A stretch of 31,586 nucleotides of DNA from a virus (IMGVR_UViG_3300008266_000572:1-31586); one strand, 5' to 3'. Positions 9,747-30,030 are shown, counted from the first letter of the stretch. Notes: generated by a model from the sequence alone, not told the origin. Translations and numbers: made by a program.

Positions 9747-10214
9747 ATGAAATTGCAACAATTAATAGAACAAATTGTTCTAGAAGAAAAGAAAAAAAGT
9801 GATCGCTGTAAGCGGATTGCTGATCGCAAATATGACAAACCATCTGCTTATAAATCAGGTGCTATTGTTAGATGCCGTAAAGGTAAAATTTGGAAGAATT
9901 TAAAAGAAAATCTAGACCCTAACACATTTGAGGACACAGGATTAGCTGGCAAATATGGATCAGGATATGCTAGATTAAAAGAAATTATTCAACAAAAACT
10001 TGAAGAAAAAGAAACACTTCGTACCTGGTTCAAACGTAAAGGTGCTCCTGGTAAAGAAGGTGGATGGGTAGATTGTAATACTTGCAGAAATGGTAAATGT
10101 AAACCTTGTGGACGCAAAAAAGGTGAAAAACGAGCTAAATATCCATCATGTCGTCCTACACCGGCTCAATGTAAATCACCTGGTAAAGGTAAAAAATGGG
10201 GGAAAACAAAATGA
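9747..10214 (+). CDS. tagged basic Cys-rich phage protein (155 aa)
   Basis: It starts with the tag-like helix MKLQQLIEQIVLEEK. A basic repeat-like region follows (CKRIADRKYDKPSAYKSGAI, then VRCRKGKIWK). The C-terminal domain has a Cys-x2-Cys pattern (CNTCRNGKCKPCGRKKG) ending in KYPSCRPTPAQCKSPGKGK. Cys spacing suggests one or two zinc sites, and the net charge suggests nucleic-acid contact. Similar sequences are common in marine T4-like phages with no known role (a DUF5872-type assignment is possible but from memory). It begins 1 nt after its neighbour and its stop overlaps the next ATG. Confidence 0.6.
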   Translation: MKLQQLIEQIVLEEKKKSDRCKRIADRKYDKPSAYKSGAIVRCRKGKIWKNLKENLDPNTFEDTGLAGKYGSGYARLKEIIQQKLEEKETLRTWFKRKGAPGKEGGWVDCNTCRNGKCKPCGRKKGEKRAKYPSCRPTPAQCKSPGKGKKWGKTK

Positions 10215-10636
10215 TTAAATTAGTAGACATCTTAAATGAAGCAGATATAGATAAATGTCCTGCTGCTACACAAAATATAGAATTAAATCTTCAAAATAGA
10301 CAAAAAGCTATTAAAGATCAAGGATATGGTCCTTTAAATCCAAATGAACCAAATGAAAAATTTTGGCAAGCTAAAGCAGATATGTGGCAACTTGACTCTA
10401 TAGAAGAAGCTAAAACCTCATTATGTGGTAACTGTGCTGCATTTGATCTTACAGAAAAAACATTAAATTGTATAGCTAAAGGTATAGGTGATGATGAAGG
10501 ATCAGAAGATCCATTTGATGTAATAGATGCTGGTAAATTAGGATATTGTAGATTTTTAAAATTTAAGTGCGCCGCAGCTCGAACTTGTGATGCTTGGGTT
10601 GTAGGAGGTCCATTGGTTGATAAAACTGAAGAATAA
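10211..10636 (+). CDS. conserved CGNCAAF cysteine-rich phage protein (141 aa)
   Basis: I choose the ATG at 10211, which overlaps the upstream stop as ATGA. It gives an N-terminus MIKLVDILNEADI that matches the tag style of other proteins here, better than the in-frame ATG at 10196. The body carries YGPLNPNEPNEKFWQAKA, CGNCAAFDLTEKTLNC, GYCRFLKFKCAAARTC and DAWVVGGP: at least six cysteines in a fixed pattern, probably metal-binding. Proteins with this signature recur in T4-like phages with no assigned function. Confidence 0.62.
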   Translation: MIKLVDILNEADIDKCPAATQNIELNLQNRQKAIKDQGYGPLNPNEPNEKFWQAKADMWQLDSIEEAKTSLCGNCAAFDLTEKTLNCIAKGIGDDEGSEDPFDVIDAGKLGYCRFLKFKCAAARTCDAWVVGGPLVDKTEE

Positions 10637-10643
10637 TTACCCA

Positions 10644-10651
10644 TATTTATA
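10644..10651 (+). promoter_or_regulatory. TATTTATA intergenic element
   Basis: Exact octamer in the 34-nt gap after the CGNCAAF gene, 19 nt before the ATG of the 916-residue protein. Confidence 0.42.
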
Positions 10652-10670
10652 ATAAATCTGATTTTTGGGA

Positions 10671-13418
10671 ATGAGCAATATACATAAGTTTATAGAATAC
10701 GTTGTTAATAATTGGCCTACTATCTTACATGAGGTGTCTTATGGAAAAGACATGCTTAAAAGAATTATAGATGGCTTCAAAGAAGATATTGAAACATATG
10801 GTGGAGAATATAACAATATTACAGATGAGCAGTTACTTAAATATATAGAAGCATTTGATAACTTCCGAAAATCTGGAGCAATCCAAAAAACAGACATATT
10901 ACAGTATAATCTCCCTGAATTAATTAGAACCGTAACCAGCAAAAAGCAATTTAAAGACGAAGCTGAGCCTGATCCAACAGTATCAGAGGTAGTTTATGAT
11001 GACGGTAACATAACAGTATGGAGCGGTGCTAGACAAGAATATTGTGTACGCCATGGAGTAGATCAACCTGAACGTGAAAGCGAAAGATGGTGTATTACTC
11101 GTCCTGGTGGCTCATATTGGGGGCAATATAGATATGGTGCGTCAAGTGGTTATCCTACATTCTATTTAATTAAAAATAGGAGTTTACCTATATCGGATAA
11201 GTTAAGCTTTGTCTCTGTTCAAATATTACAAAACGGGGATTACAAATACACCAACAGAAAAAACTCACCAGGAATGTCCCAAGAAATGAGTTGGGGACAA
11301 TTAATTAATGAAGTACCATGGTTATCTGAAATACCTAATTTAAGAAACCTAATCAGGTGGATCCCATTTACTCCTGAAGAGAAAAGAGCACAAAATATAC
11401 AAGCTAAAAAGATGTCATATGAGAACTGGTTGTCTATCCCTATATCAAAAAGAATAGATTATCTTATGATTTATAGTAAGGATGAAAAGCCATTTGCTGA
11501 CTTAAGTATGGATAACTTTTTATCTAAAAAATTACCTAAAGAAGAACTAAAAGACACAGCCAGAGAGATAGCAAGTACTTACGGTGTTATAAATCTAAAT
11601 TCACTACTAAGTAACCTAGAATCATTTACCCCCGCAAACCAAAAATCTATATTACATCAATTAACTAGTAGAGAAGGAGGGCAAGTAAGACAAAAAATAA
11701 AAACTAATCTTCTTTCATCTCCTAACCTTAGTTTTGCAATCAAAAAACTTATAACAACCCAAGACATATGGGATAAAGAAGATAATGAAGCCATATACCT
11801 TGCTACAGATAGTAGAGGACAAGAAGCAATTGTAGAATTATCTATATCACCTGCTGGAGGCGCATCCATGGCTGTATATCAAGATGGGTATAGTTTCCCA
11901 TCTGTAGCCCTAAATAAAAAAACATCTCCATTACTATTAGCATATCCTGATTTGGATAAGATGCCCCTTAAAATATTATTAGATTTACTTTCTAAAGGTG
12001 CTATAAGTCGAGGAGTTATAGATAAAATAATTAAAAAAGGACAAGAAGACCCCAATTCTGCTATCATAGTCAAAGCTGTAGAAGATGGAAAAATAATACT
12101 AGATACAAATTCATTTACAGCATATAAACTTGTAGGAGATGAAATATCTAAAATAGCATTTGATACCCCAGAAGTACAACAAATTCTTAATCAAGAAACT
12201 GATAACACAGGGTTACAACAAAACGCACTTGCATTAGTTGCTGATAAAGACGATATACCTGATTATATTGATAAAACTTCATTTCTTAGTATTCTAAACT
12301 CTATGCCATATGACCAAAGAAAACCTAGAGATTTAGACGCTGTATTAATGATAGCCCCAGACCTGGATATGTCCATATTTGCGGTCCCAGCTAATTTGGT
12401 ATTAACTCAACCTTATTCTGAGTACACGTATGGTGGTAGAAATCCAAACTGGAGAAGATATACAGGCTATGAGCCCATATTGGAAGAGGCAGCATGGGCT
12501 ATATATTTTACCTACTTAAGAAGTAAAAATCGTTCATATGATGATCAATCATTAAGGGCACTCTTAGATTCACAATCATATGGAGGAAGAACAACTCTCA
12601 AAATTAACTTTATTAAAGCCAATCCACCACTGGATTCTAACAATCGATATCGCCCGTTTGTGGTTACAGTAGATGGTGAAGAAAAAGCACTTTTACTAAA
12701 CAGAACCAACCCAGCAGATAGCTTAGTAGTAGGTAAAAGAGGTAGCCTTATCAGATCAAATGTTAAAGCATCAACTGCACAACAATTACTAAGAGCTAAT
12801 CCATTACCTGGCGCTCCTGCCGAAGAAGAACCAGCGGCACCTGCAGCCGCAGCTGCAATGGGAGCAGGACAAGCTGTAGCAGCACCTCTAAGAAGAAGAG
12901 GAAGACCAGCCGCTGGGGCACAAATACGACCTGTAGTTCAACAACCTAATGCGGGTGCAGGTATAACCATTGCCCAATATTTTGCTCAATTACCTCAAGG
13001 AGCTGAGTTACAAACTGCATTTAATGCATTACCAAACGGCCTTCGAAATCCGTTTGTGCTTGTAACTTCAAGTCCATTAGTCGGAGATAGAGGAGCATCA
13101 CGTCGTACTAATCTGCTACCTGGAGATGGTAGGGTAGTAAGAGTACTTAATTCTACTACTAGCCCAAGTAAAATGTATATAATACAATTAGACAGTGGAC
13201 TAATGATAGCATCTATCGTTATTCAACCTGGTAATTTACATTATATAATGAGACAAAATGGTCCCGTTATACGATTAGCTGACCCATCTGCTTTAGCAAC
13301 AGCTTTACAACAAAATAACTTAAACGAGGAATTAACTGGAGCTGTTACTAGATTACATATAGCACATAATCCATCAATACTTAAAGAAAAACTAAAACAA
13401 AAACAAAATGAAAGCTAA
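10671..13418 (+). CDS. large conserved unknown with AT-hook-like linker (915-916 aa)
   Basis: The largest protein of the window. I start it at the ATG at 10671; a TTG at 10665 would add two residues. Residues about 110-220 hold a Trp/Tyr/Cys-rich module (VWSGARQEYCVRHG, then RWCITRPGGSYWGQYRYG and PTFYLIKN) seen in other T4-like phage proteins. Residues about 225-700 are helical, in short charged blocks. An Ala/Pro/Glu linker (about 715-740) is followed by R741-R-R-G-R-P746, an AT-hook core, then more Ala/Gly. The C-terminal 140 residues look beta-rich. No enzyme motif was identified. Large size, DNA-binding linker and location near tagged proteins are compatible with an internal virion or ejection protein, but this is a guess. 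Its 3' end overlaps the next gene by 11 nt. Confidence 0.55.
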   Translation: MSNIHKFIEYVVNNWPTILHEVSYGKDMLKRIIDGFKEDIETYGGEYNNITDEQLLKYIEAFDNFRKSGAIQKTDILQYNLPELIRTVTSKKQFKDEAEPDPTVSEVVYDDGNITVWSGARQEYCVRHGVDQPERESERWCITRPGGSYWGQYRYGASSGYPTFYLIKNRSLPISDKLSFVSVQILQNGDYKYTNRKNSPGMSQEMSWGQLINEVPWLSEIPNLRNLIRWIPFTPEEKRAQNIQAKKMSYENWLSIPISKRIDYLMIYSKDEKPFADLSMDNFLSKKLPKEELKDTAREIASTYGVINLNSLLSNLESFTPANQKSILHQLTSREGGQVRQKIKTNLLSSPNLSFAIKKLITTQDIWDKEDNEAIYLATDSRGQEAIVELSISPAGGASMAVYQDGYSFPSVALNKKTSPLLLAYPDLDKMPLKILLDLLSKGAISRGVIDKIIKKGQEDPNSAIIVKAVEDGKIILDTNSFTAYKLVGDEISKIAFDTPEVQQILNQETDNTGLQQNALALVADKDDIPDYIDKTSFLSILNSMPYDQRKPRDLDAVLMIAPDLDMSIFAVPANLVLTQPYSEYTYGGRNPNWRRYTGYEPILEEAAWAIYFTYLRSKNRSYDDQSLRALLDSQSYGGRTTLKINFIKANPPLDSNNRYRPFVVTVDGEEKALLLNRTNPADSLVVGKRGSLIRSNVKASTAQQLLRANPLPGAPAEEEPAAPAAAAAMGAGQAVAAPLRRRGRPAAGAQIRPVVQQPNAGAGITIAQYFAQLPQGAELQTAFNALPNGLRNPFVLVTSSPLVGDRGASRRTNLLPGDGRVVRVLNSTTSPSKMYIIQLDSGLMIASIVIQPGNLHYIMRQNGPVIRLADPSALATALQQNNLNEELTGAVTRLHIAHNPSILKEKLKQKQNES

Positions 13419-13674
13419 AGACCTAAAACGTATAATTAAAGAAGAACTATTAGCAATACTAGCTGAAAACGCTCCTGCTCCTACTACTGCACCACCTAAA
13501 ACCACACCTAAAACAAGACCAGGTAACCCAGGATTAACCCCAACACCAGGTAAAACTCCAAAAGAAAGACCAGCTAAAGCTGTAAAAAAGAATGAAAAGG
13601 ATGAGGTTAAAGAAGATAAAGCAGCTACATTAGTAAAAGGAATCATGAATAAGTATAAAAAACTAAAAAAATGA
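13408..13674 (+). CDS. tagged Pro/Lys-rich small basic protein (88 aa)
   Basis: The N-terminus is the clearest example of the recurring tag: MKAKDLKRIIKEELLAILAE. The rest is low-complexity Pro/Thr/Lys (TTPKTRPGNPGLTPTPGKTP) ending in a basic helix MNKYKKLKK. A short targeting helix with a likely gp21 cut site (IIKE/E), followed by a basic, probably disordered body, resembles T4 internal proteins packaged with DNA. That is inference from architecture. It overlaps the upstream gene by 11 nt and the downstream one by 4 nt. Confidence 0.6.
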   Translation: MKAKDLKRIIKEELLAILAENAPAPTTAPPKTTPKTRPGNPGLTPTPGKTPKERPAKAVKKNEKDEVKEDKAATLVKGIMNKYKKLKK

Positions 13675-15065
13675 AAAAACTCCACGAAATGAAGTATAGC
13701 GATATCTTCAAAGACCCAGACACATTGCCTGGTATTAAAGGAAGAAATGCTGAAACTCGAGCTAAATTATTAGGCAATGACTCACTAAGAGCCATAATGC
13801 AAAAATCAGGTGTATTAATTAGTCAACTAATACAGGCCGAAGCACCATACAAAACCGAATTAGAGAATTTGGCTGTAGAAATGGTTAAAAAAATGTATCC
13901 TATTATTGATGAATACAATATTGAAATTGAAGTATCATTAGGATTAGGTGAATTACCTCCTCAAGATGAAGATGAAGATGAAGAGGAAGAAGAAGAGGGA
14001 ATTGAATTACCCCCACTCCCTGACCTAGACCAACCTGATCTTAAAAGTGATGATGTAGCTAAAAGACGCCTTATTAATGCTATTACACAAGGAGCCTCGA
14101 TTCACGGTTCATTAGAAAAACCATTTGTAGATTTCTTAGATGATGTTGATGATAACTTACTACAACGATACAGTGCTGTATTAACAAACCTTGACAACTC
14201 AGTCTCAAAATATGGTGAATCATTAAAGAAAGTATTTGGTATATTTTATGATGAAGAAGCAGTAGCTATGTTATTAGCTATGTTAGCTGGAAACCAAAAC
14301 CAACCCCAAGCATCTGGAAAAGGTGGAGAATCTGAAGCTGATTTTGACGATGATGGTAACCTACGAATCAGAGCAGCAGGTTTAATATTCCCATTTTTAA
14401 TACACGAAATTATAAAAGGATTGTATGAAATAGTTTCACTCCAAGGATTTACTAAAGATGCTATAACCAACCAAGATGTAGTAGCAGCCGCAGATAAACT
14501 AGAGCACGAACCAGAAGATTTTGGTACTGGTACTCACATATTAGGTGATTTAAGAGCATTACACAACGGTGCTAATGTTCGTGACAAGATATCATTTGAA
14601 TTATTTTTAGCTAATATATATAGAGAAGACGATGCTAAAGCATTTGTTGAATTTATTGAAAATTTGTTAAATAATAAACTAACATCTGCTCAAAAACGTT
14701 GGGCTGAGGAACATATGGAACCAACCCCTGACATTGAAGATGAGGGTGGAGATGATGACGATGTAGATGATATTACTTTACCCGACTTTGGTTTAAATGA
14801 AAATAAAAAGCCATATCGTGACCTGAAAGTAACAAACAAGTACATTATACGCGAGTTTAACGCGAATATTGACCCAATTGAATTGAAATGGCATCGTGAT
14901 AGAGAAGATCGTATTGTAGAAATCGTAGGTAATACTGATTGGAAAATACAATTAGAAAACCAATTACCAACTTCTATAAATGAATCAATATTTATACCAA
15001 AAGGACAATGGCATCGTGTTATCAAAGGTAACGGTACGTTGACTTTGAAAATAAACAAAAAGTGA
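13671..15065 (+). CDS. acidic conserved phage protein with C-terminal WHRD/HRVIKG domain (464 aa)
   Basis: Starts in the upstream stop (ATGA). Residues 1-95 are helical. An Asp/Glu-only run lies at about 98-110. Residues 120-345 are helical, with LRIRAAGLIFPFLIHEIIKG as a hydrophobic centre. A second acidic run follows at about 354-365. The last 80 residues form a separate compact domain: EFNANIDPIELKWHRDREDR, then TDWKIQLENQLP and GQWHRVIKGNG. I recall this C-terminal module at the ends of unrelated T4-like phage proteins; the His/Glu/His pattern suggests a small beta-barrel, perhaps cupin-like. Function unknown; a structural or prohead-associated role is possible. Confidence 0.55.
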   Translation: MKKLHEMKYSDIFKDPDTLPGIKGRNAETRAKLLGNDSLRAIMQKSGVLISQLIQAEAPYKTELENLAVEMVKKMYPIIDEYNIEIEVSLGLGELPPQDEDEDEEEEEEGIELPPLPDLDQPDLKSDDVAKRRLINAITQGASIHGSLEKPFVDFLDDVDDNLLQRYSAVLTNLDNSVSKYGESLKKVFGIFYDEEAVAMLLAMLAGNQNQPQASGKGGESEADFDDDGNLRIRAAGLIFPFLIHEIIKGLYEIVSLQGFTKDAITNQDVVAAADKLEHEPEDFGTGTHILGDLRALHNGANVRDKISFELFLANIYREDDAKAFVEFIENLLNNKLTSAQKRWAEEHMEPTPDIEDEGGDDDDVDDITLPDFGLNENKKPYRDLKVTNKYIIREFNANIDPIELKWHRDREDRIVEIVGNTDWKIQLENQLPTSINESIFIPKGQWHRVIKGNGTLTLKINKK

Positions 15066-15439
15066 AAAAATCTGAATTAATACAACTTATTAAAGAAGAA
15101 TTAAGTAATATTCTGAATGAAGAGTCTACTCAATATAACGTTGAGGGACTTCTTCAAACAGATACTACATCTCGCCCTCAAAAAGATATACTATCTGACA
15201 TTAGATCTCTACCAGGCATAACAATTGTATCTACAAAAGATTATGAACTACAAGGACCAGAAGTATTAGCATTTAACAACCCAAATTATTACACAGTTCT
15301 TCGTATTAAAATCGACCCACATCCCTACCCAGCAGGATTTAAGGATGAGGATTTACAAAATTTGTTTGATGACATTAGGTCTATTGAAGGTGTTAGAAAC
15401 TTTAAGTTAAGCAAGTCTGTAGAAAAGAAAACTGTGTAA
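15062..15439 (+). CDS. tagged small protein with ferredoxin-like domain (125 aa)
   Basis: The start is GTG at 15062, overlapping the upstream TGA (GTGA); no ATG gives the tag. The N-terminus reads MKKSELIQLIKEELSNILNE, the consensus tag with a likely LIKE/E gp21 site. The body has an order of strand-helix-strand elements: ILSDIRSLPGITIV, then YTVLRIKIDPHPY, LQNLFDDIRSIEG and VRNFKL. The repeated DIRS-x-(P/E)-G half suggests a ferredoxin-like alpha/beta fold. Role unknown. A hairpin follows the stop. Confidence 0.6.
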   Translation: MKKSELIQLIKEELSNILNEESTQYNVEGLLQTDTTSRPQKDILSDIRSLPGITIVSTKDYELQGPEVLAFNNPNYYTVLRIKIDPHPYPAGFKDEDLQNLFDDIRSIEGVRNFKLSKSVEKKTV

Positions 15440-16682: not shown

Positions 16683-17168
16683 ATGAAAGTAGAAAATTTA
16701 CGCTCACTTATACGTGAATCAATTAACGATTATATTAGAGGAATTGATGAAGCAGGAAACAAAGCAGCTTTAAATGCTAAAATAACTGCAACTCAAGAAG
16801 CAATCGAACTTCGTAAGAAGAAAATGAATATGGATGGCTTAGATGAGGCATACCATGACATGCTTGATAAGGGTAAAGTTAAAGAATTAGGCGGTGAAGT
16901 TAAAGCACTAGAGAGAAATTTAACCAAATTGCAAAAACAATTAAGTAAACTTACTTCAAAATCTGAGCCTAAAGCTGAAGTAGTATCTGACGGTGAATTA
17001 CCCGCAGACGAAGCATCTGTTGAAGAATTAAATATTACTAGTGAGATAGAATTAGAAGAAACTCGCTCTAGAAAAGGAAAAGACGCTAAAAAGGTAGTTA
17101 AGAAAGATGAGGAAGTGTTAAACGAATCATTTATCAAAATGCAAAAATTAGCTGGTATCATTAAATAA
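16683..17168 (+). CDS. coiled-coil protein with N-terminal tag and scaffold-like C-terminal tag (161 aa)
   Basis: The N-terminus (MKVENLRSLIRESINDYI) fits the recurrent tag. Residues 30-100 are a charged coiled coil (ELRKKKMNMDGL, then KALERNLTKLQKQLSKL). The last 15 residues read NESFIKMQKLAGIIK, matching the final 15 residues of the scaffold (NDAFARMQRLAGLRK) at 8 identical positions and at the same distance from the C-terminus. I infer a prohead-core or scaffold-associated protein sharing an assembly signal with gp22. A strong terminator follows, so this gene forms a short unit of its own between a TATTTATA element and that hairpin. Confidence 0.62.
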   Translation: MKVENLRSLIRESINDYIRGIDEAGNKAALNAKITATQEAIELRKKKMNMDGLDEAYHDMLDKGKVKELGGEVKALERNLTKLQKQLSKLTSKSEPKAEVVSDGELPADEASVEELNITSEIELEETRSRKGKDAKKVVKKDEEVLNESFIKMQKLAGIIK

Positions 17169-17229: not shown

Positions 17230-18240
17230 ATGAAATTAATTAGTATATTAAAAAATATAGTTGAAGGAGTAAGTCAACGTAATGGTAAAATAAGTGTACA
17301 TCCTTATAATAACCCTGACGACTTACTTCTTACAGCCGATTACAATGCTGTTAGAAAAGGTAATACTGTAAACTATACTTTTGAATATAACCCCAAATAC
17401 GAAAACCCAGAAGAAATTAAAGATGTAGCTGATAAACTTAAAGCACTAGACTCGTCAATTGATCAATCTAAATTAGAAGAAACAATACGAACATCTTTAA
17501 AATCACTATTTAAGCAAAACTTTACCCCGGATGTGGTTTATTATTTAGGATCATCTAAAGGGTTAGCTGAATTTATAGCAAAAGTAATACAAAAAGAATA
17601 CCCGGATGTAGAGGTTTTACCTTTAAATAAAAAAACATTTCCATCATGGGAAAACATGTTGGTAGATAACTACAAGGAATTAATTAAAACTCCTGAGTTA
17701 TTAAAATTAGTACAATCTACCGCCCAAAAAATGTGGTATGAAGAAAAAGGCAAAATCAAAAGCTCAGGGTACCTTACTAAGGTAAGAGATTATTTTAAAC
17801 CTAAGTATGAACTAGAAAAGATAATAGCAAGAGAAAATATGCTGTTTGTAGATGACAATACACAATATGGTAAAGATTTTGCATTCATCAAACAACATCT
17901 CCCAGACACTAAAAACATAATGTTTTATGCTACTATATTGCTTCCATTAAGTGGAGCAACTACAACCAAAGCTAGTACTCAAATTAAAAAACCTTTTATA
18001 TTTACTACTGTAGACCCAAAATACTTTAAGACTGTTAAAGACGCTTCTGGAAACCGAGTGTTTATGGTATCATCAGAACATCCTCAAATTAGTGCCCTTA
18101 AAAAAGAATTAAAAATAGATGATATACCTCTAAAATTACCTATGGGGCAGTATTATAAATTTAAACCTAATGCTGGTATTAATAGCATTGAAGACTTAAA
18201 AACAAAAGACACTAGTAGTAAATACAATGTACAAAGTTAA
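17230..18240 (+). CDS. phosphoribosyltransferase-like protein (336 aa)
   Basis: Two features suggest a type I phosphoribosyltransferase-like fold. VVYYLGSSKGLAEFIA (G107-G111) resembles the loop that contacts pyrophosphate. MLFVDDNTQYGKDF (D208-D209, G214) resembles the PRPP-binding loop, although the usual Thr before Gly is Tyr, so activity is uncertain. The N-terminus MKLISILKNIVEG has the length and amphipathic pattern of the tag on other proteins. The C-terminal 90 residues are unrecognised. The gene is flanked by terminators and so is expressed alone. A tagged, possibly nucleotide-modifying protein could act inside the virion or the infected cell; that is speculative. Confidence 0.6.
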   Translation: MKLISILKNIVEGVSQRNGKISVHPYNNPDDLLLTADYNAVRKGNTVNYTFEYNPKYENPEEIKDVADKLKALDSSIDQSKLEETIRTSLKSLFKQNFTPDVVYYLGSSKGLAEFIAKVIQKEYPDVEVLPLNKKTFPSWENMLVDNYKELIKTPELLKLVQSTAQKMWYEEKGKIKSSGYLTKVRDYFKPKYELEKIIARENMLFVDDNTQYGKDFAFIKQHLPDTKNIMFYATILLPLSGATTTKASTQIKKPFIFTTVDPKYFKTVKDASGNRVFMVSSEHPQISALKKELKIDDIPLKLPMGQYYKFKPNAGINSIEDLKTKDTSSKYNVQS

Positions 18241-21220: not shown

Positions 21221-22618
21221 ATGGCTCAAGATTTAAAACAAATAATCCGAGAGGAATATCTTAAGTGTGCTCAAGACCCAGCACACTTCATGAAAAAATA
21301 CTGCCACATCCAGCACCCGCAACGTGGCCGAATTATTTTCAACCTATACCCATTTCAAGAAAAAGTATTACATCTATGGAGAGATAATCCATACGATATA
21401 ATACTTAAATCAAGACAGTTAGGTATATCTACATTAGTAGCAGGTTACTCATTGTGGTTAATGCTGTTTCAAAAAGATAAAAACATCTTATGTATAGCAA
21501 CTAAGCAAGAAACAGCTAAAAACATGGTAACGAAAGTTAAATTCATGTTTGAAAACTTACCTTCTTGGTTAAAAATCACAGCTGAAGGAGGTGCAATTGT
21601 ATTATCTACCCCATATGGTACGGGTAATTGGTTTCACCAAACATGGGTCAAAGCCGAATCAGGCGAGAACCAATTCTTACCTATTAAACTACCATGGTAT
21701 GTTCATCCTGAACGAGATGAGACTTGGAGAAAACGACAAGATGAATTATTAGGTGATCCTAGAATGGCAGCACAAGAATGTGACTGCGACTTTAACACTT
21801 CAGGTGACGTTGTATTCTACCCTGAATATATTGATTTTATTACTTCAACATACGTTAAAGAACCATTAGAAAGACGAGGTGCCGACCAAAACCTGTGGAT
21901 ATGGGAACCAGCCGATTATACCCGCAGTTACATGGTAATAGCCGACGTTGCTCGTGGTGATGGTAAAGACTTTTCCGCATTCCATATTATAGATGTTGAA
22001 ACCAATACTCAAGTAGGTGAATATAAAGGACAATTATCACCCAAAGAATTTGGTTATTTTCTAGTAGGTATAGCAACTGAATATAATGAAGCACTATTAG
22101 TAGTAGAAAATGCAAATATAGGATGGTCAACAATTGATGCCGTTCAAGAACGAGGATATAGAAATTTATATTATTCACCTAAAAGTGAAACAATAAATGC
22201 TGATTCATATCTAGATAAGTTTGAAGACCCATCTAAAATGACACCCGGCTTTACTATGTCTTTAAAATCAAGACCCCTTGTCATTAATAAATTTCGTGAG
22301 TATATTGGCGACAAGAGTGTAGTAATACAATCTAAAAGATTAGTTGAAGAAATGAAAGTGTTTGTGTGGAAAAATGGAAGAGCAGAAGCACAATCAGGAT
22401 ACAACGATGATCTAGTAATGAGTTTTGGCATTGCAATGTATGTTAGAGACACAGCCCTTAAATTTAAAACACAAGGAATGGATCTAACCCGCGCAATGCT
22501 TAGTAACATTGTTAGTGTTAAACCTAACCAACAAGGAGCATATGTTGCTAATAAATACAACAATCCGTACAATATGGACTTTGGTCAAGGACCTGAGGAC
22601 ATAAGCTGGTTACTATAA
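21221..22618 (+). CDS. 17: large terminase subunit gp17, apparently lacking an internal ATPase segment
   Basis: This is the packaging motor ATPase/nuclease. The N-terminus MAQDLKQIIREEYLKC precedes a Walker-A-like ILKSRQLGIST (S64-T71). The nuclease domain shows VIADVARGDGKDFSAF (D242), VVENANIGW (E296) and GYNDDLVMSF (D396/D397), the three acidic sites of T4 gp17-type nucleases. At 465 residues it is short. LPSWLK (to K118) runs straight into EGGAIVLSTPYGTG (from E122), whereas relatives I recall carry roughly 55-65 more residues there, including the Walker B D-E. That region is absent here (see findings). gp17 drives DNA into proheads at the portal, encoded by the next gene. Confidence 0.9.
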   Translation: MAQDLKQIIREEYLKCAQDPAHFMKKYCHIQHPQRGRIIFNLYPFQEKVLHLWRDNPYDIILKSRQLGISTLVAGYSLWLMLFQKDKNILCIATKQETAKNMVTKVKFMFENLPSWLKITAEGGAIVLSTPYGTGNWFHQTWVKAESGENQFLPIKLPWYVHPERDETWRKRQDELLGDPRMAAQECDCDFNTSGDVVFYPEYIDFITSTYVKEPLERRGADQNLWIWEPADYTRSYMVIADVARGDGKDFSAFHIIDVETNTQVGEYKGQLSPKEFGYFLVGIATEYNEALLVVENANIGWSTIDAVQERGYRNLYYSPKSETINADSYLDKFEDPSKMTPGFTMSLKSRPLVINKFREYIGDKSVVIQSKRLVEEMKVFVWKNGRAEAQSGYNDDLVMSFGIAMYVRDTALKFKTQGMDLTRAMLSNIVSVKPNQQGAYVANKYNNPYNMDFGQGPEDISWLL

Positions 22619-22644: not shown

Positions 22645-24528
22645 ATGGCAGATAAAGGTCTATTCCCCAGACTACAAAGATTATTTTCAACTGATGTAAT
22701 AATCCGAAACGCTGGAGGCAATGAATTAAAAGTAATGGATGTTAATAGCATTCAAACAACTGGTGAATACCAAACTAATTCGCTTATAGATAGATACAGT
22801 CGTATTTACTCTAATAATAGTACCTCTTTATACGGTGCTCAATTAAATCTTAACTGGAGATATCTACGTACTCAAATCTATTCGGATTATGATGCTATGG
22901 ATACTGACGCTATTATCGCGTCTGCTTTGGATATAATCGCAGATGAATGTACTCTCAAGAACGATATGGGTGAGGTACTTCAAATTAGAAGTAGCGACGA
23001 AGATATACAAAAAATATTATACAACTTATTTTATGATGTACTAAACATTGAATTTAATTTATGGTCTTGGATTCGCCAAATGTGTAAGTATGGTGATTTT
23101 TTCTTAAAATTAGAAATAGCAGAAAAATTCGGTGTGTATAATGTTATACCTTATACTGCTTACCACATTGCACGTGAAGAAAACTACGATCCTAAAAAAC
23201 CATCTGAGGTAAGATTTGCATTTAGTGCTGATGGATACTCAGGAGGAACCGGGTACTATGGGGTAACAGGACAAGGTAACTATTCTTCTAACAAACAAGA
23301 CAACAAGGTATACTTTGACAACTATGAAATGGCTCATTTCAGATTAATTACTGATGTGAACTATTTACCCTATGGCCGCTCTTACTTAGAACCAGCACGT
23401 AAGTTGTTTAAGCAATATATTTTGATGGAAGATGCAATGTTAATCCATCGTATTTGTCGCGCCCCAGAAAAACGTATTTTCTATATTAATGTTGGTTCTA
23501 TTCCTCCAAATGAAGTAGAAAACTTCATGCAGAAGACTATCAACACAATGAAGAAAACTCCATTAGTTGATCCTCAAACAGGTGAGTATAATTTAAAATA
23601 TAACCAACAGAATATGTTGGAAGACTTTTACATACCAGTTAGAGGTAATGATTCATCTACTAAGATTGAACCTACTAAAGGAATGGATTATAATGGTATT
23701 GAAGACGTAGCATACTTAAGAGATAAGTTATTTGCTGCTTTAAAAGTACCTAAAGCGTTTATGGGTTATGAAAAAGACTTAACTGGTAAAGCAACTTTAG
23801 CAGCAGAAGATATTCGTTTCGCTCGTACAATTGATCGTATCCAACGTATCATTCTATCAGAATTAAATAAAATAGCGTTAGTTCATTTATATACTCAAGG
23901 ATATAGAAACGAAGGCTTAACAAACTTTGAATTAGACTTAACTACTCCTTCTATCATATATGATCAAGAAAGAATAGCATTAATGAAGGAAAAAGTAGAT
24001 TTAGCTCGTAATATTATTGAGACTAAAATATTACCTACTGATTGGGTTTATGATAATATATTCCACTTAAGCCAAGATCAATTTGATGAGTATCGTGATT
24101 TGATCGCTGAAGACCAAAAACGTATCTTTAGATTAAAACAAATTGAAAACGAAGGCAACGACCCATTAGAATCAGGTAAATCATACGGTACACCTCACGA
24201 TTTAGCAGCACTATATGGTGCTAGTAGGTATGGCGAAGTACCTGATGGATATGATGAAGATTTAACCTTAGGTCGCCCTAAAGAAAAAGTATCCAATATT
24301 GGTACCCAAGATAATATATTTGGTAAAGATAGATTAGGTAATGTAGGTATGAAAAATGGTGATGATACTGGTGAAGATAAATCATTAAGAAATAACTTTA
24401 AAGGCGGTTCACCACTAGCATTAGAAACTACGTTGAAAAATAAATCACTTATTGAATCTTTAGATAAAAAGCTTTCAATGAAGAAAGATGATTCCTCGCT
24501 ATTAGATGAATCCCAAATACGAGAATAA
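22645..24528 (+). CDS. 20: portal vertex protein gp20
   Basis: The sequence is a T4-type portal of 627 residues. Diagnostic stretches include YGRSYLEPARKLFKQYILME, EDAMLIHRICRAPEKRIFYI and DVGSIPP-like NVGSIPPNEVENFM. Also present are NLKYNQQNMLEDFYIPVRG, YLRDKLFAALKVPKAFMGYE and LTGKATLAAEDIRFARTIDR. gp20 forms the dodecameric ring at one vertex, nucleates scaffold assembly and docks the terminase. The C-terminal 90 residues are charged and low-complexity. It directly follows gp17, so tail sheath gp18 and tube gp19, which lie between these genes in T4, are elsewhere. Confidence 0.94.
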   Translation: MADKGLFPRLQRLFSTDVIIRNAGGNELKVMDVNSIQTTGEYQTNSLIDRYSRIYSNNSTSLYGAQLNLNWRYLRTQIYSDYDAMDTDAIIASALDIIADECTLKNDMGEVLQIRSSDEDIQKILYNLFYDVLNIEFNLWSWIRQMCKYGDFFLKLEIAEKFGVYNVIPYTAYHIAREENYDPKKPSEVRFAFSADGYSGGTGYYGVTGQGNYSSNKQDNKVYFDNYEMAHFRLITDVNYLPYGRSYLEPARKLFKQYILMEDAMLIHRICRAPEKRIFYINVGSIPPNEVENFMQKTINTMKKTPLVDPQTGEYNLKYNQQNMLEDFYIPVRGNDSSTKIEPTKGMDYNGIEDVAYLRDKLFAALKVPKAFMGYEKDLTGKATLAAEDIRFARTIDRIQRIILSELNKIALVHLYTQGYRNEGLTNFELDLTTPSIIYDQERIALMKEKVDLARNIIETKILPTDWVYDNIFHLSQDQFDEYRDLIAEDQKRIFRLKQIENEGNDPLESGKSYGTPHDLAALYGASRYGEVPDGYDEDLTLGRPKEKVSNIGTQDNIFGKDRLGNVGMKNGDDTGEDKSLRNNFKGGSPLALETTLKNKSLIESLDKKLSMKKDDSSLLDESQIRE

Positions 24529-24568: not shown

Positions 24569-25426
24569 ATGACTATTAAACATTCAAAGTACAAAAATAC
24601 AGGCATCCTCTTTGAACTTCTTGTAAGACAAATTACAGCGGACACCTTATCAGGTACTGAATCAAAAGCAGCAAATATTTTAAAGAAATATTTTACTAAA
24701 ACTGAATTAGGACGAGAGTATAAGTTATACGAGAACCTATTTAAGTACGTAAACGTTAGTGAGGCTAAGGCCGATATGGTGGTTACTACCCTAATCGAAA
24801 GCTCAAAACAACTAAACCGCTCAGCCCTTAAAAGACAAAAATATAATTTGATTAAGGAAATTAAGGCTAACTACAATGTTGAAGAATTTTTCAAAACAAA
24901 GTTACCTAATTATAAGGCACAGGCTGCATTGTATACTTTATTAGAAGTATACAACAGTGAAAATTTGTCAAATCCAAATCAAATTATTGAGAATAAAACA
25001 GCTCTTTTAGAACATTTAACTCAATCAACTATTGATAAACAAGGTGTTCAAAATAGTACATTAGAAGAATTTAGAAATCAAGATAAAGATATTCGTATGT
25101 TAACATACAAAGTATTACTTGAAAAATTCAATAATAAGTATGCTAATCTAAATGAGAACCAAAAATCAGTTTTAAAAGAATTTATTAACAGTGTTGATAA
25201 TACCCCCAAATTAAAGGAGTTTTACAATGGTAAAGTAAATGAAATTAAAACATATCTAGCTAGATTAAATGCTTCTGTCACTGATAAGGCTGTGCAGATC
25301 AAAATTAATGAAGTGATTAATATGTTATCACCATTAAGCAAAAATGATAAGGCATCAGACGACAATTTAGTAAACTTGTTACAATATTATCAATTAGTTG
25401 AGGAATTAGAAACAATAGCTAAATGA
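24569..25426 (+). CDS. conserved protein in the prohead-core position (285 aa)
   Basis: A helical, charged protein with an N-terminal signature HSKYKNTGILFELLVRQITA and ILKKYFTKTELGREYKLYE, which I recall from other T4-like phages downstream of the portal. No enzymatic motif, signal peptide or membrane helix. The lysine/glutamate-rich helices, many with L-x-E or I-x-E sites, fit a component assembled inside the prohead and trimmed by gp21. In T4 this interval encodes gp67 and gp68; there is no clear sequence match to those. It overlaps the next gene by 4 nt. Confidence 0.55.
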   Translation: MTIKHSKYKNTGILFELLVRQITADTLSGTESKAANILKKYFTKTELGREYKLYENLFKYVNVSEAKADMVVTTLIESSKQLNRSALKRQKYNLIKEIKANYNVEEFFKTKLPNYKAQAALYTLLEVYNSENLSNPNQIIENKTALLEHLTQSTIDKQGVQNSTLEEFRNQDKDIRMLTYKVLLEKFNNKYANLNENQKSVLKEFINSVDNTPKLKEFYNGKVNEIKTYLARLNASVTDKAVQIKINEVINMLSPLSKNDKASDDNLVNLLQYYQLVEELETIAK

Positions 25427-25896
25427 GCAAACTAGACAGAATACGAGATATAATTAAAAAACGCCTAGAAGAAGAAAATGCTACAGGCACTGGTGCTTCT
25501 TTTAATCCAGGTGATGGTGGAGAAAATTACTCTATGCCTGTAGCTGGTAAAGCTAAAAATTATTATGTAGATAAATTAGGGTATAAACTTGTTAAACCTA
25601 CAAAATCTAAAGCTTTTGACCAAAAACAATTGTGGGAAGAACAAACTGCATTTGATCTTGAATCATACATTTCCGCCCTACCCACAGATGATGAGAAATT
25701 AAAAAAATACATTGCTGGTCATATGGGTGATTATAATACTATATCTAGCAAATTAAAAGAACTTATTCAACTAGTAGGGGATGCTAAAAAGGATGATATA
25801 AACACATACCGAAAAGATCCTCAATTTAGATCAAACTATAGCACAGACTTAGCAATTGAACTTTTAAACGACTTAATAGACTTTTTTACAAAATAA
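25423..25896 (+). CDS. tagged protein with a capsid-N-terminus-like segment (157 aa)
   Basis: MSKLDRIRDIIKKRLEEEN is a tag-like N-terminal helix with possible gp21 sites. It is followed by TGTGASFNPGDGGENYS, which parallels TGTSATFNSGTSGENWA just after the predicted cleavage site of the major capsid protein. The rest is helical with a conserved-looking LWEEQTAFDLESYISALP. I infer a prohead-associated, proteolytically matured protein. Starts inside the upstream stop (ATGA). Confidence 0.57.
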   Translation: MSKLDRIRDIIKKRLEEENATGTGASFNPGDGGENYSMPVAGKAKNYYVDKLGYKLVKPTKSKAFDQKQLWEEQTAFDLESYISALPTDDEKLKKYIAGHMGDYNTISSKLKELIQLVGDAKKDDINTYRKDPQFRSNYSTDLAIELLNDLIDFFTK

Positions 25897-25899
25897 AAC

Positions 25900-27060
25900 A
25901 TGGAACAAACACTACAATCACAATATAACCTTATTAAAGAAGGTAAAGGAAATAAAGCCTATTTCCTAAAATCAGCATATCGTCTATTCCCAGATATGTT
26001 ATCACCTGTTAACACATTTGAGGATACAGTTGCTATCCTTAAAAATAGAAGTATCATAAGTGAAGGTATTGGTGGATTAGTTACATCTGGTAAAAAACAA
26101 GATTGGCATTCTATCTTTAATGAGAATATGAATAAGCTTAAAGAAAATAGTGAGGAAGAAAAAATCCAAAAACTAAAAGATATAATGGCTAAGGCTGAAA
26201 AAGGAGACACTCAAGCTACCCAAACTTTAGCTATGATGATGGCTGATATACCTGGTTTAAAAGAAGGAGAAGATGAAGAAGAAGATGGCGAATATGATGA
26301 AATGATCAAACGTCACGAAGAAGAAGAAGATGCTAAACACACTTTACCTAACTATCGTCGTGGTCTTAAAGAAGCTAAAGAAAAAGAACCATCTAAAGAA
26401 GTATTAGATAATCAAAAACATAACTTTGATTACAAAGATGATAAAAACTATGACAACTTGTTTGGTCAAGAATTTTTAGATGGATACTACACAGAAATGA
26501 AAGACCCAGCTAATGCTGATAAAGATGTTGAAGAATTAAGAGCTATTGTTGCTAAAAACTTAGCTAAAGACAAACAATACTACCTTAAAAACGGACAATT
26601 TGGAGTTAAAGGATTAGGATATACTACTGAAGCCCCAGGATTAGGCGAACCAAAAGAACCTAAAGGTAAATTTGCATCATCAGGATATGGTGATATACCA
26701 AAAACTAAAGATCTAAAAGAATCGGTATTACGTTCTCAAATTCATCTTTTAATTAAAGAAGTATTAGACGAACTTCAACAAGACCCAAAGGCATATGCTG
26801 ATGAGGAAGAGTTTAGCACTAGATTACTTAGTAAAATAAAAAGTAACATACACGGTAAAAACAAACACCACGCTGCTAAGTATGGTGAACCAGATGTAAA
26901 TGTAGAATATTATCTAGAATTTGCTGAAAAAAATATGCAAAACATCATCGATAAATTCTTTGACCATACTAAACCAGAAGGTGGAGTAGGCGATGCTGTA
27001 AAACATGTTTTAGCTAAAGTAGACTCTAGTGTGCTTCATGAAGCTAAGAAGAAAAAATAA
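25900..27060 (+). CDS. putative prohead-core protein (386 aa)
   Basis: The N-terminal segment SQYNLIKEGKGNKAYFLKSA and RLFPDMLSPVNTFEDTV is conserved-looking. A glutamate-rich linker occupies about 125-150. Residues about 155-235 include FGQEFLDGYYTEMKDP. An internal helix SVLRSQIHLLIKEVLDELQ (about residues 276-294) looks like the N-terminal tags elsewhere. The tail is basic (HEAKKKK). Charge, low complexity and location between portal and protease all fit a scaffold/core component. No enzyme motif. Its TAA shares a base with the next ATG. Confidence 0.55.
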   Translation: MEQTLQSQYNLIKEGKGNKAYFLKSAYRLFPDMLSPVNTFEDTVAILKNRSIISEGIGGLVTSGKKQDWHSIFNENMNKLKENSEEEKIQKLKDIMAKAEKGDTQATQTLAMMMADIPGLKEGEDEEEDGEYDEMIKRHEEEEDAKHTLPNYRRGLKEAKEKEPSKEVLDNQKHNFDYKDDKNYDNLFGQEFLDGYYTEMKDPANADKDVEELRAIVAKNLAKDKQYYLKNGQFGVKGLGYTTEAPGLGEPKEPKGKFASSGYGDIPKTKDLKESVLRSQIHLLIKEVLDELQQDPKAYADEEEFSTRLLSKIKSNIHGKNKHHAAKYGEPDVNVEYYLEFAEKNMQNIIDKFFDHTKPEGGVGDAVKHVLAKVDSSVLHEAKKKK

Positions 27061-27284
27061 TGATTAAGCTAGTAGATCTACTATTTGAAGATAAAGAAGT
27101 TAGTAATATTGATTATTACCAACAAGTACTTAACATAAGTAACGGCATATCTCCATCTAGTAGAAAATACTTTCAATCTGTAATTGATTCGGTTAAAAAA
27201 CGAGGTAACAAAGCTACCCCAAAACAATACGATATACTAGAAAGAATACGAAAAGGAGATTTTTCTTACCACCCAAGAAACTAA
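27060..27284 (+). CDS. small conserved phage protein (74 aa)
   Basis: The N-terminus MIKLVDLLFEDKE is similar to that of the 10211 gene (MIKLVDILNEADI). The body has YFQSVIDSVKKRGNKATPKQ followed by YDILERIRKGDFSYHP, a pattern I recall in T4-like phages with no known function. One-base overlap with the upstream gene (TAATG) indicates coupling. Confidence 0.5.
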   Translation: MIKLVDLLFEDKEVSNIDYYQQVLNISNGISPSSRKYFQSVIDSVKKRGNKATPKQYDILERIRKGDFSYHPRN

Positions 27285-27285: not shown

Positions 27286-27774
27286 ATGAAAAAATCTGAT
27301 TTATTAAAATTAATTAAAGAAGAATATAAGGCTATATTAGAAGCTAAAATGTTTGATGATCCAAATGATTTACTTTCTGGTGTGGATAATTACATATCTG
27401 AGTTACCTATTAAGATGACTGGTTGGAGAAAACAATTAGTTGAAATACTTGAAAAGGATACTGGGTATCAAAACATGGCTAACATGTTAACAAATTTTAC
27501 TGAAGTAGTTAAGAAAGAATTAGCTACAATAGAAAATTTTAAAGATGATGTAAGCGAACATATTCGAGAATATAATGAAATATATTCAAAAAGTGAACAA
27601 CTAAGTCCTGAGGACGAAAAAATGTTTGATGAATTAGAAAATCTAGATTATAAATTAACAGATGTATCTAACCAACTAGAAGAATACACTGATGGGCTAG
27701 AAAAAATAACCGAAAGCTACAACACACTATCAGACACAGTACGATATATAGTTAAATTTGATTTAAAAGCATGA
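27286..27774 (+). CDS. tagged helical protein (162 aa)
   Basis: MKKSDLLKLIKEEYKAILEAK is nearly the same tag as on the 15062 and 13408 proteins, with a probable LIKE/E cut site. The body is a long, acidic helical bundle or coiled coil (ELATIENFKDDVSEHIREYN, then EDEKMFDELENLDYKLTDVS). It lies immediately before the protease gene, whose ATG overlaps its stop by 4 nt, as expected for a prohead-core substrate made alongside gp21. Confidence 0.58.
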   Translation: MKKSDLLKLIKEEYKAILEAKMFDDPNDLLSGVDNYISELPIKMTGWRKQLVEILEKDTGYQNMANMLTNFTEVVKKELATIENFKDDVSEHIREYNEIYSKSEQLSPEDEKMFDELENLDYKLTDVSNQLEEYTDGLEKITESYNTLSDTVRYIVKFDLKA

Positions 27775-28382
27775 AACAAGTATTAATAGAAACAAGAGCA
27801 TTTGCCGCTAGCCCGGTATCACTCACTGAAGGAAAAAGTGAAACAGGAAATTTACTTGTTAAAGGTATTTTAGCTACAGCTGAGGTAAAAAACGGCAATG
27901 GTCGCTACTACTCAAGAGACTTATGGGAGCGTGAAATAGACAAGTACATGGAAAATGTTAATGCTAATAGAGCATTAGGCGAACTAGACCACCCAGACTC
28001 ATCTATTATCAATTTAAAAAATGTTTCTCATAATATTAAGAAAATATTTTGGGAAGGAGATAACGTAATGGGTATAATTGAATTATTACCTACTCCATCT
28101 GGTAACATTTTAACATCGTTGTTTGAAAACAAAATACCAGTAGGTGTATCATCACGTGGTATGGGCTCATTAAAACAAATGGGTGAATTAATGGAAGTAC
28201 AAGACGATTTTGAATTATTATGTTGGGATTTCGTCTCTACACCTTCAAATCCTGGTTCGTATATGAAAGAATTAGGTGTAATGAATGAGTCTAAAACACC
28301 CCAACAGTATAACAAGTACCAAAAAGTAAACTCAATTATCACAGATATACTTTGTGCTAATGGATCTTGCCCTATATTCTAA
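27771..28382 (+). CDS. 21: prohead core protease gp21
   Basis: The 203-residue protein matches T4 gp21-type serine proteases. Sequence landmarks are KNGNGRYYSRDLWEREIDKY, the catalytic His region GELDHPDSSIINLKNVSH (H74) and the nucleophile region IPVGVSSRGMGSL (S127/S128). It ends with DFVSTPSNPGSYM. It cleaves scaffold, core proteins and the capsid precursor after L/I-x-E type sites during head maturation. The size is close to T4 gp21 (about 212 aa). It starts in the stop codon of the tagged gene before it. Confidence 0.92.
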   Translation: MKQVLIETRAFAASPVSLTEGKSETGNLLVKGILATAEVKNGNGRYYSRDLWEREIDKYMENVNANRALGELDHPDSSIINLKNVSHNIKKIFWEGDNVMGIIELLPTPSGNILTSLFENKIPVGVSSRGMGSLKQMGELMEVQDDFELLCWDFVSTPSNPGSYMKELGVMNESKTPQQYNKYQKVNSIITDILCANGSCPIF

Positions 28383-28386
28383 TACT

Positions 28387-28695
28387 ATGGATAAAAATAA
28401 GTTAAAACAACTAATCCAAAAAATAGTAATCCAAGAAATTAAAGTAAACCGAAACCCAACGCTTCGTTATGCAGCATTTGGTAAAAAAATGGACCAACTT
28501 GGTATAGACGACAGTAGCATCGAAATAGATGGAATAGATATGCGTGATGCTCCTGAATTTGTAGATGCATATATTTCATATGCTGAGTGGGAGGATGGTG
28601 CTGAATTAACTGATGATGAATTAGAAATGCTTAATGATACATCTGAGTATCAAGCACTAGCCCAAGAAAAAGCATTTGAAAAAGCATTTATGTGA
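28387..28695 (+). CDS. tagged small acidic protein (102 aa)
   Basis: I start it at the ATG at 28387, 4 nt after the protease stop; an upstream in-frame extension to 28354 lies inside gp21 and lacks the tag at its start. The N-terminus MDKNKLKQLIQKIVIQEIKV is a tag-like helix. The second half is acidic with APEFVDAYISYAEWEDGAEL and TDDELEMLNDTSEY, a module I recall in other T4-like phages. Role unknown; placement between gp21 and gp22 favours a head-assembly connection. Confidence 0.57.
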   Translation: MDKNKLKQLIQKIVIQEIKVNRNPTLRYAAFGKKMDQLGIDDSSIEIDGIDMRDAPEFVDAYISYAEWEDGAELTDDELEMLNDTSEYQALAQEKAFEKAFM

Positions 28696-28724: not shown

Positions 28725-28755
28725 ACCCTACAGAAATGTAGGGTTTCTTTTTTTT
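28725..28755 (+). terminator. intrinsic terminator with GAAA tetraloop
   Basis: ACCCTACA (28725-28732) pairs perfectly with TGTAGGGT (28737-28744) around a GAAA loop, followed by TTCTTTTTTTT. It separates the core genes from gp22-gp23. Confidence 0.92.
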
Positions 28756-28765
28756 CTATACATAA

Positions 28766-28882
28766 ATGCGACTTTACATATTTCTATATATATGTATGCT
28801 CAAATATGCTATCTTCTATATAGCATTTATTATAACAAATCTATTACGTTTCTATATTAAACGTATTTCCAAAACAATTTAA
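28766..28882 (+). CDS. possible 38-aa hydrophobic leader ORF
   Basis: An ATG at 28766 opens a 38-codon frame ending 11 nt before the gp22 ATG. The product would be hydrophobic and basic at the end: MRLYIFLYICMLKYAIFYIA, then further Ile/Leu/Phe and RFYIKRISKTI. It looks like a single-pass membrane peptide. It also coincides with the hairpin array of this leader, and AT-rich DNA tends to encode such residues, so it may be chance. There is no Shine-Dalgarno sequence. Confidence 0.28.
   Translation: MRLYIFLYICMLKYAIFYIAFIITNLLRFYIKRISKTI
28775..28865 (+). promoter_or_regulatory. array of three hairpins with a shared TCTATAT-type loop
   Basis: Three inverted repeats follow each other in the gp22 leader. 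TACATAT/ATATGTA spans 28775-28796 with loop TTCTATAT. ATGCTAT/ATAGCAT spans 28806-28826 with loop CTTCTAT. TACGTTT/AAACGTA spans 28845-28865 with loop CTATATT. Stems differ but each has 7 perfect pairs, and each loop contains CTATAT or CTAT. A fourth TTCTATA lies at 28754-28760. They could be mRNA structures or protein-binding sites controlling scaffold and capsid expression. Confidence 0.6.
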
Positions 28883-28884
28883 TT

Positions 28885-28889
28885 GAGGA
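28885..28889 (+). promoter_or_regulatory. Shine-Dalgarno GAGGA of gp22
   Basis: GAGGA lies 4 nt upstream of the gp22 ATG at 28894. It is the only well-placed Shine-Dalgarno sequence I found in the window. Confidence 0.65.
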
Positions 28890-28893
28890 CAAA

Positions 28894-30030
28894 ATGAACA
28901 GAGAAATGCTCAAAGAAGCAATCGCTGAAGCTAAGACCATTAAGGAAACTGCTATCGCGAGTGCAAAAGCTGCTCTTGAGGAAGCATTCGCTCCACAACT
29001 TACAGCAATGTTTGCTGAAAGGTTGAACGAGATGGATGAAGAAGAAAGAGTAGAAGAAAATGATTATTCAGACGAGGAATTTAGCTTAGAAGATATTTTA
29101 GCTGAGTTAGGAAAGGCTGAAGATGATTCTGAAATGAAAGATGAAGGTATGTATGAAAACTTAGATGAAGATCTAGTGTTAGAAGACATGTCTGACGAAG
29201 ACATCGAAGAATTAGTAACATCAGTTATTGACGACATGATCGCATCTGGTAAGCTTATGGCTGGTGAAGAATCAGAAGAAGAAATGGATATGGACGACAT
29301 GGAAGACATGGGTGACATGGAAGACATGGATATGGACATAGACATGGAAGACGGTGAAGAAGAAATCGAAGACGAAGATGAAATCAAAATCGACGAAATC
29401 TTAGCTGAAATCTTAGGTGAAGAGAAAAAAGAAGTAGAAGAAGGAGCTGACATTCCTGCTGACGAGTATGTTACTGGAACTCAGGGTGGTGGAGTTGCTT
29501 TAGGTCTAGCTGCTGGAGTTGCTGCTTTAGCTTGGAGTTCTTTAGATAAAAAACAAAGAGAAGAACTTACAACTAATGCCAAAGCTGCTTTACAAAGATA
29601 CGGAGATGATTTAGCTGGTGCCGCTGAATGGGTAAAAAATAAGTCTAAAGGTATCCTTGGAATAAAAGAAACAGCTGACGTTAAAGAAATGGAAGACACT
29701 ATCAATGAGTTAAGAAACGAACTTAATGAAGTTAATCTATTAAACGCTAAACTTCTTTACACTAACAAAATCTTCAAAGCAAAGAATCTTACCGAATCTG
29801 AAAAAGTAAAGGTTTTAAACACATTTGACAAAGCAGAAACTGTAAAAGAAGTTAAACTAGTATTCGAAACATTAGCTGAATCTTTCAAAACAACAAACAA
29901 GAAAGCAGCAATTAAAGAATCATTAGGATCGGCTTCTAGAAGCATCGCACCTGCTACCCCAAAACAACCAATTATTGAAGTAAACGATGCATTTGCTCGT
30001 ATGCAGAGATTAGCTGGTTTAAGAAAATAA
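28894..30030 (+). CDS. 22: prohead scaffold protein gp22
   Basis: Identified by position (after gp21, before gp23), by the N-terminal MNREMLKEAIAEAKTIKET resembling T4 gp22 (which begins MLKEQLIAEAQ), by high acidity, and by a conserved-looking helix NEVNLLNAKLLYTNKIFKAK and LTESEKVKVLNTFDKA. An acidic Asp/Met repeat occupies about 130-150. Residues about 190-260 are an unusual insert with a Gly-rich hydrophobic helix (V201-L217). The C-terminus NDAFARMQRLAGLRK matches that of the 16683 protein. gp22 forms the core on which gp23 assembles and is then degraded by gp21; many L-x-E and I-x-E sites are visible. Length (378 aa) exceeds T4 gp22. Confidence 0.88.
   Translation: MNREMLKEAIAEAKTIKETAIASAKAALEEAFAPQLTAMFAERLNEMDEEERVEENDYSDEEFSLEDILAELGKAEDDSEMKDEGMYENLDEDLVLEDMSDEDIEELVTSVIDDMIASGKLMAGEESEEEMDMDDMEDMGDMEDMDMDIDMEDGEEEIEDEDEIKIDEILAEILGEEKKEVEEGADIPADEYVTGTQGGGVALGLAAGVAALAWSSLDKKQREELTTNAKAALQRYGDDLAGAAEWVKNKSKGILGIKETADVKEMEDTINELRNELNEVNLLNAKLLYTNKIFKAKNLTESEKVKVLNTFDKAETVKEVKLVFETLAESFKTTNKKAAIKESLGSASRSIAPATPKQPIIEVNDAFARMQRLAGLRK
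29281..29352 (+). repeat. in-gene GACATGGAA-type repeat in gp22
   Basis: Imperfect short repeats of GA(C/A)ATGGA(A/T) encode a Met/Asp/Glu-only tract. It is a low-complexity acidic segment of the scaffold and a likely site of length variation. Confidence 0.65.

Follow-up and report, generated by a model that had tools for sequence, protein, structure and literature searches.

Introduction

In phage T4, gp67 and gp68 are assembly-core proteins, and Alt is an ADP-ribosyltransferase that is packaged, cleaved by gp21, and injected. Capsid targeting sequences are already known in this phage: the internal proteins IPI, IPII, and IPIII carry the peptide MKTYQEFIAE/A (Mullaney and Black 1996, as quoted in PMC9026906; a slash before the last residues marks the end of a tag here and below), in which residues 4 and 7 serve targeting and residues 8 and 10 processing, and T4 gp21 cleaves after L/I-x-E (PMC9026906). 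The internal proteins (Ips) of T-even phages have also been found through such a common signal sequence, at least 10 of them having been reported according to the account of Repoila 1994 given in PMC12373910, and Ip1-3 block GmrSD restriction enzymes (PMC12373910). Elsewhere, the giant phages phiKZ and SPN3US have N-terminal propeptides with S/A-x-E sites that are removed by a gp21-like protease, and in P1 an N-terminal signal directs DarB into the head (PMC9024508), the Dar proteins having no common consensus. For the giant phages and P1, no short tag that recurs and can be swapped was reported in the papers we found. The localization of core proteins in T4-like heads has been called mysterious (PMC9958956).

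Here, we analyzed a 31.6-kb stretch of viral DNA (the window), which comes from a T4-like phage genome and contains terminase, portal, protease, scaffold, and capsid genes (Table 1). Its closest cultured relative is Flavobacterium phage immuto, many IMG/VR contigs being closer still. As in T4, a short N-terminal peptide with an L/I-x-E end stands on unrelated small proteins and a gp21-type protease is encoded. One class of these tags (class D) follows the T4 layout position by position, with hydrophobic residues at 4 and 7, L/I at 8, and E at 10, whereas A, B, and C differ from it in sequence. Unlike T4, the phages studied here have several unrelated and interchangeable tag classes of up to 20 residues, one of which (class C) is common to cargo and the scaffold tail, and about 8-17 tagged genes per genome, against the three internal proteins plus Alt of T4. 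The T-even Ip loci differ from the present case in the kind of tag, in the number of bodies, which here exceeds a hundred clusters, and in the phages themselves, which here belong to a Bacteroidota-linked clade. In the literature searched, we found no multi-class swappable tag system with a scaffold-tail class and more than 100 body families, and a search for the tag strings themselves returned nothing relevant.

Results

Short N-terminal tags recur in the window and its relatives

A sequence-only reading of the window had named twelve open reading frames (ORFs) whose products would share one amphipathic N-terminal motif in front of unrelated bodies. The named ORFs (12/12) indeed begin where this reading placed them, the one at 15062 with GTG. 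A first iterated profile drifted onto one redundant family (the orthologues of 25900, TLQEQYNLIKEGKG); it was replaced by a cluster-weighted profile and then by a leave-homologues-out profile trained, against circularity, on the relatives minus every protein cluster holding a window protein. ORFs of the relatives were called with a simple ORF caller, tags were called from profiles and regular expressions, and the samples were retrieved through head genes or through the tag itself, and are thus biased. With the leave-homologues-out profile, 8 of the 41 window genes reached p ≤ 0.005, where 0.4 were expected; of the 12 named N-termini, 10 had p ≤ 0.0075. Among the relatives, class A tags stood on 67 of 950 body clusters, where shuffles predicted 1.9 and internal segments matched at a rate of 0.24%, the excess over both being about twenty-fold or greater. 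The recurrence of tags on unrelated bodies was confirmed.

Table 1. Tagged proteins and head genes of the window, with the tag or site of each and the p value of its N-terminus.
Feature	Coordinates	Strand	Tag or site	Tag coordinates	p
Basic Cys-rich protein	9747..10214	+	candidate tag MKLQQLIEQIVLEE, weak alone	9747-9788	0.07
Cys-rich protein	10211..10636	+	class D, MIKLVDILNE/A	10211-10240	0.0005
Pro/Lys-rich 88-aa protein	13408..13674	+	class A, MKAKDLKRIIKEELLAILAE/N	13408-13467	0.0005
125-aa protein	15062..15439	+	class A, MKKSELIQLIKEELSNILNE/E, GTG start	15062-15121	0.0005
Coiled-coil protein	16683..17168	+	class A	16683-16751	0.0005
C-terminal tail of the 16683 protein		+	class C, SFIKMQKLAGIIK, then stop	17127-17165	
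336-aa orphan	17230..18240	+	doubtful class D-like start, MKLISILKNIVE/G		0.03
73-aa protein just upstream of terminase	20985..21206	+	class A, MKRSELKSKIEEIITELLDE/N	20985-21044	0.0005
Terminase large subunit	21221..22618	+	untagged		0.14
Portal (gp20)	22645..24528	+	62% identical to the immuto portal		
157-aa head-cassette protein	25423..25896	+	class A-like, MSKLDRIRDIIKKRLEEE	25423-25476	0.0025
74-aa protein	27060..27284	+	class D, MIKLVDLLFE/D	27060-27089	0.001
162-aa coiled-coil protein	27286..27774	+	class A, MKKSDLLKLIKEEYKAILE/A	27286-27342	0.0005
gp21-type prohead protease	27771..28382	+	Pfam Peptidase_S77, E = 1.5e-28		
102-aa protein	28387..28695	+	class A, MDKNKLKQLIQKIVIQE/I	28387-28437	0.0075
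Scaffold (gp22)	28894..30030	+	N-terminus MNREMLKEAIAE/A		0.007
C-terminal tail of the scaffold		+	class C, FARMQRLAGLRK, then stop	29992-30027	
Major capsid protein (gp23)	30062..31586	+	conserved site QLVVE/SS	30227-30241	

Instead of the single motif that had been described, we recovered two classes on the dozen, class A (13408, 15062, 16683, 20985, 25423, 27286, and 28387) and class D (10211 and 27060). The N-terminus of 9747 is backed by its family: the orthologues have class A/D-like tags with an LSE or LEE end, followed by a conserved RCxRIADRKxDKPSAYKSG body, and the tag of the orthologue in G002 is clear (MNTSELQQLIREILSE). The start of 17230 is doubtful, and this protein had no relative among the viral contigs searched and no convincing Pfam match. 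The terminase N-terminus, which had been thought to fit the motif, can be ruled out by its p value and because it is ordinary terminase sequence, residues 11 onward aligning to T4 gp17 residues 108 onward. As for the scaffold N-terminus, its proposed resemblance to the tag comes down to a weak class A fit, and we discarded it as a model of the tag; the strong common element is the scaffold C-terminus.

Tag classes and their exchange between bodies

We distinguished at least four tag classes. Class A (MKxSELxxIIKEEIxxxLNE) ends at about residue 20 and was found N-terminally on 73 bodies from 48 loci, and class B (FDLKKFLVENKLT, FDLKKFLVENKLTxxS in consensus) is rarer. Class C (FxRMQKLAGIITE(S)) was N-terminal in 86 proteins belonging to 53 body clusters and 80 loci. 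Class D (MIKLxDILNEA or MIKLxDILxEA) was listed for 53 clusters, but signal peptides are among them, so that the true class D count is below 53. Over a hundred unrelated bodies bear tags across a broad T4-like clade. When the bare tag peptides were compared with annotated phages by tblastn, class C matched only immuto and class A had no match; in 257 Gb of bacterial genomes, class C matched twice, both times on phage contigs binned with bacteria.

C-terminal copies of class C were found as well. A tail of the form [RK][M/aromatic]xx[LI]A[GF] closed 98/98 scaffolds of the relatives, class C lacking the cleavage site in this position. In the window, both the scaffold and the coiled-coil protein at 16683 end in class C, which the sequence-only reading had overlooked, and an 805-aa protein of one relative has class C at both ends. 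Since class C is the conserved scaffold tail, cargo with this tag seems to imitate the scaffold. The KLAG scaffold tail was considered as a general T4-like trait and rejected as such, being absent from T4, the cyanophage S-CAM9, the Aeromonas phage Aswh_1, and the Rhizobium phage RHph_I1_18; it is present in Mel-JY01.

Homologous bodies were found with different classes, indicating that the tags are interchangeable. Class D is exchanged for class C between G003:103667 and L240:593 (58% identical, E = 3e-59), A for C between G005:136730 and L208:2366 (E = 2e-26), and B for A between G002:75131 and L102:6188 (E = 2e-16), which belong to the family of 28387, where L286 has class B as well. Further homologous bodies exhibited A/D and B/C swaps. 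The orthologue of 10211 at L257:8491 has the same body with a class B tag, and bodies homologous to 15062 have class D in L276 and no tag in L233 and L214. The bodies of 27060 and 27286 are fused under one class D tag in L011, L092, and L095, the 27286 tag being missing at the junction of the fused orthologues, while the separate genes each have their own tag. One tag per polypeptide, be it fused or separate, is what would be predicted for a per-polypeptide address label.

In the family of 20985 (L003-L050), the class A tag is kept and the following segment is strongly variable, the 30-60 residues behind the tag being replaced by different cassettes even among close relatives.

The tags end at a putative prohead protease site

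The junction between tag and body was best seen in a family resembling ADP-ribosyltransferases (ART-like), in which 33 aligned proteins carry 30 different tags of 6-20 residues. P1 was E in 33/33, P3 was I or L in 32/33, and P1' was G, A, or S in 33/33. One ART-like homologue starts with MKTFKELIE, near the MKTFKEF of T4 IPI. For class A, a second L/I-x-E lay just behind the profile in 28 of the 44 clusters tested (shuffled sequences: 9.9, with a maximum of 19 in 2000 runs), and E occupied residue 20 in 23 cases. In a second sample, partly query-biased, 61/81 tags ended exactly at residue 20, as does the window tag at 13408, terminated there by L-A-E; a minority of class A tags have no residue-20 site. 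Class C tags had [ILV]xE within 5 residues in 98/104 cases.

The capsid protein of the clade carries the matching site QLVxE, which aligns in the relatives as QAKQ[LI]VxE. We presume that the protease at 27771 is the tag-removing enzyme. Peptidase_S77 was present in 12 of the 13 tag-bearing contigs of at least 100 kb, a proportion that has no base rate from random large phages beside it, and the one contig lacking it ends inside the portal gene.

In 25423, the residues past the tag E (NATGTGASFNPG) are those that the capsid protein has just past its own site. This SATGTGASFTxG arm is common to the 25423 family and the capsid protein and was found in no other family among 1.2 million residues. 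The post-tag residues of 25423 thus mimic the mature N-terminal arm of the capsid protein (30062-30415), which suggests a role of this family as minor capsid or vertex protein.

Distribution of the tagged genes

In seven near-complete genomes, tags were present on 0/206 known cytoplasmic enzymes, 0/132 known tail or shell proteins, and 77/1149 other genes (p = 4e-6), the NT5C and kinase genes, which are the only recognizable cytoplasmic-type enzymes with tags, being counted among the others. The sequence-only reading had held that a motif equally common on clearly cytoplasmic enzymes would refute its interpretation; the count on the known enzymes of this kind was zero. Tagged genes were concentrated in the head region, defined as the 20 kb upstream of terminase up to the capsid gene (39/233, against 38/1254 elsewhere; odds ratio 6.4, p = 1e-13). 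About half of them lie outside this region, some among early genes, and may therefore not be made at the time of prohead formation.

Class A genes also occur in tandem arrays of 3-6 consecutive genes with unrelated bodies, at L369 230-3199 (six tagged genes in a row), L388 7021-8713, and L383 3522-9381, the latter array flanking a protease gene.

Cargo bodies

Most tagged bodies have no known domain. Those that could be recognized include zeta-toxin-type kinases (down to E = 3e-16), NT5C nucleotidases, LRR proteins, and the ART-like proteins. In L239, L241, L219, L265, L251, and G004 (55476-56300), the domain of a zeta-toxin-type P-loop kinase directly follows a class D tag. The ART-like family matched Tox-ART-HYD1 of Pfam in 10/33 members (best 1.3e-6) and was weakly similar to DarT1 (E = 0.29). 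Its members (L287-L338) have invariant YH, R, GDK.S, and ExE-type residues, with some 30 tags before the body. As with T4 Alt, a family with ART-like features would be routed by a tag, although it is a small family different from Alt; it is a possible analogue of this packaged T4 protein.

Discussion

Proposed role of the tags

We consider it very probable that the tags are removable capsid-targeting propeptides. The routing to the prohead put forward by the sequence-only reading is well supported at the sequence level by the tag swaps, the L/I-x-E junction, the scaffold-tail class C, the proximity to head genes, and the untagged enzymes; the literature searched yielded no virion proteome from this clade. 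From these data we infer a succession of core docking, cleavage, packaging, and injection. Late in infection, the N-terminal amphipathic peptide would draw the tagged protein into the scaffold core while the prohead grows, and there the gp21-type protease would cut after L/I-x-E at the tag end and free the body inside the head. Many of the freed bodies would probably be ejected into the next host, like the T4 internal proteins and Alt. All four tag classes would do the same job and be swapped among cargo genes. Since class C copies the scaffold C-terminal tail, class-C cargo probably docks on the binding partner of that tail, which provides a concrete and testable docking hypothesis.

With less confidence, we lean toward a broader interpretation, a modular cargo-loading code in which non-homologous and interchangeable tags, one of them copying the scaffold C-terminal tail, would load dozens of effectors (such as the ART-like proteins and zeta-type kinases) for injection, and in which any tag could recruit new cargo.

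Alternative explanations

The most serious alternative, which we regard as unlikely but worth retaining, accepts the targeting to the prohead and sees the tagged proteins mainly as assembly-core helpers that are degraded or kept in the head, few being injected. The position of 25423, 27060, 27286, and 28387 between the portal and capsid genes, which is the place of core proteins in T4, agrees with this explanation, and so do the several coiled coils, among them 16683 with its additional scaffold tail. However, the majority of the tagged bodies resemble the T4 internal proteins in their small size, poor conservation, and accessory nature, and the zeta-toxin-type kinases, NT5C nucleotidases, and ART-like proteins seem better suited to delivery. 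Some of the tagged proteins may nonetheless be core proteins that are destroyed rather than cargo.

It is improbable that the N-terminal helices serve to dock the proteins on another intracellular phage complex, with an incidental L/I-x-E, even if such an explanation would accommodate the half of the tagged genes located outside the late head region. The E of the ART-like junction is invariant over 30 different tags and the I/L at P3 nearly so, class C is the scaffold tail, 25423 has the post-cleavage arm of the capsid protein, and core cytoplasmic enzymes are never tagged, all of which argue against this explanation.

We give very little credit to the tags being a translated DNA- or RNA-level feature, such as a recombination seam or a translation enhancer. 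The genomes are AT-rich, many tags begin with MKK, and tagged genes are at times in tandem (L369, L388), as such a feature might entail, but the codons of class C contradict it: identity at third positions was 0.59, against 0.63 for random codons, whereas positions 1 and 2 were conserved. Third codons thus vary like random codon choice, indicating selection on the peptide, and class C moreover occurs at C-termini. Finally, chance resemblance or composition of short amphipathic helices, to which the individual weakness of 9747 and 17230 could be attributed, is contradicted by the excess over shuffles and internal segments and by the leave-homologues-out replication, and is the least credible explanation of all.

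Implications

As capsid-targeting propeptides, the tags may point to many hitherto hidden proteins that are injected into bacteria, and through them hundreds of phage proteins without annotation could be searched as candidate injected effectors. Since the three internal proteins of T4 all counter restriction (PMC12373910), the tagged bodies are good candidates for novel anti-defense functions.

Additional observations on the window and its relatives

A frameshift near 30400 interrupts the reading frame of the window capsid gene; it is probably an error of metagenome assembly or sequencing, the relatives being intact. Very large proteins lie near the 917-aa protein of the window or are related to it (window 10671-13418, G006 82104-84521, and G003 9992-12790), and two of those in relatives have class C at one end or at both. 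In L341 (407-3160), a phage contig binned as bacterial, the terminase gene is split by an intron- or intein-like reading frame.
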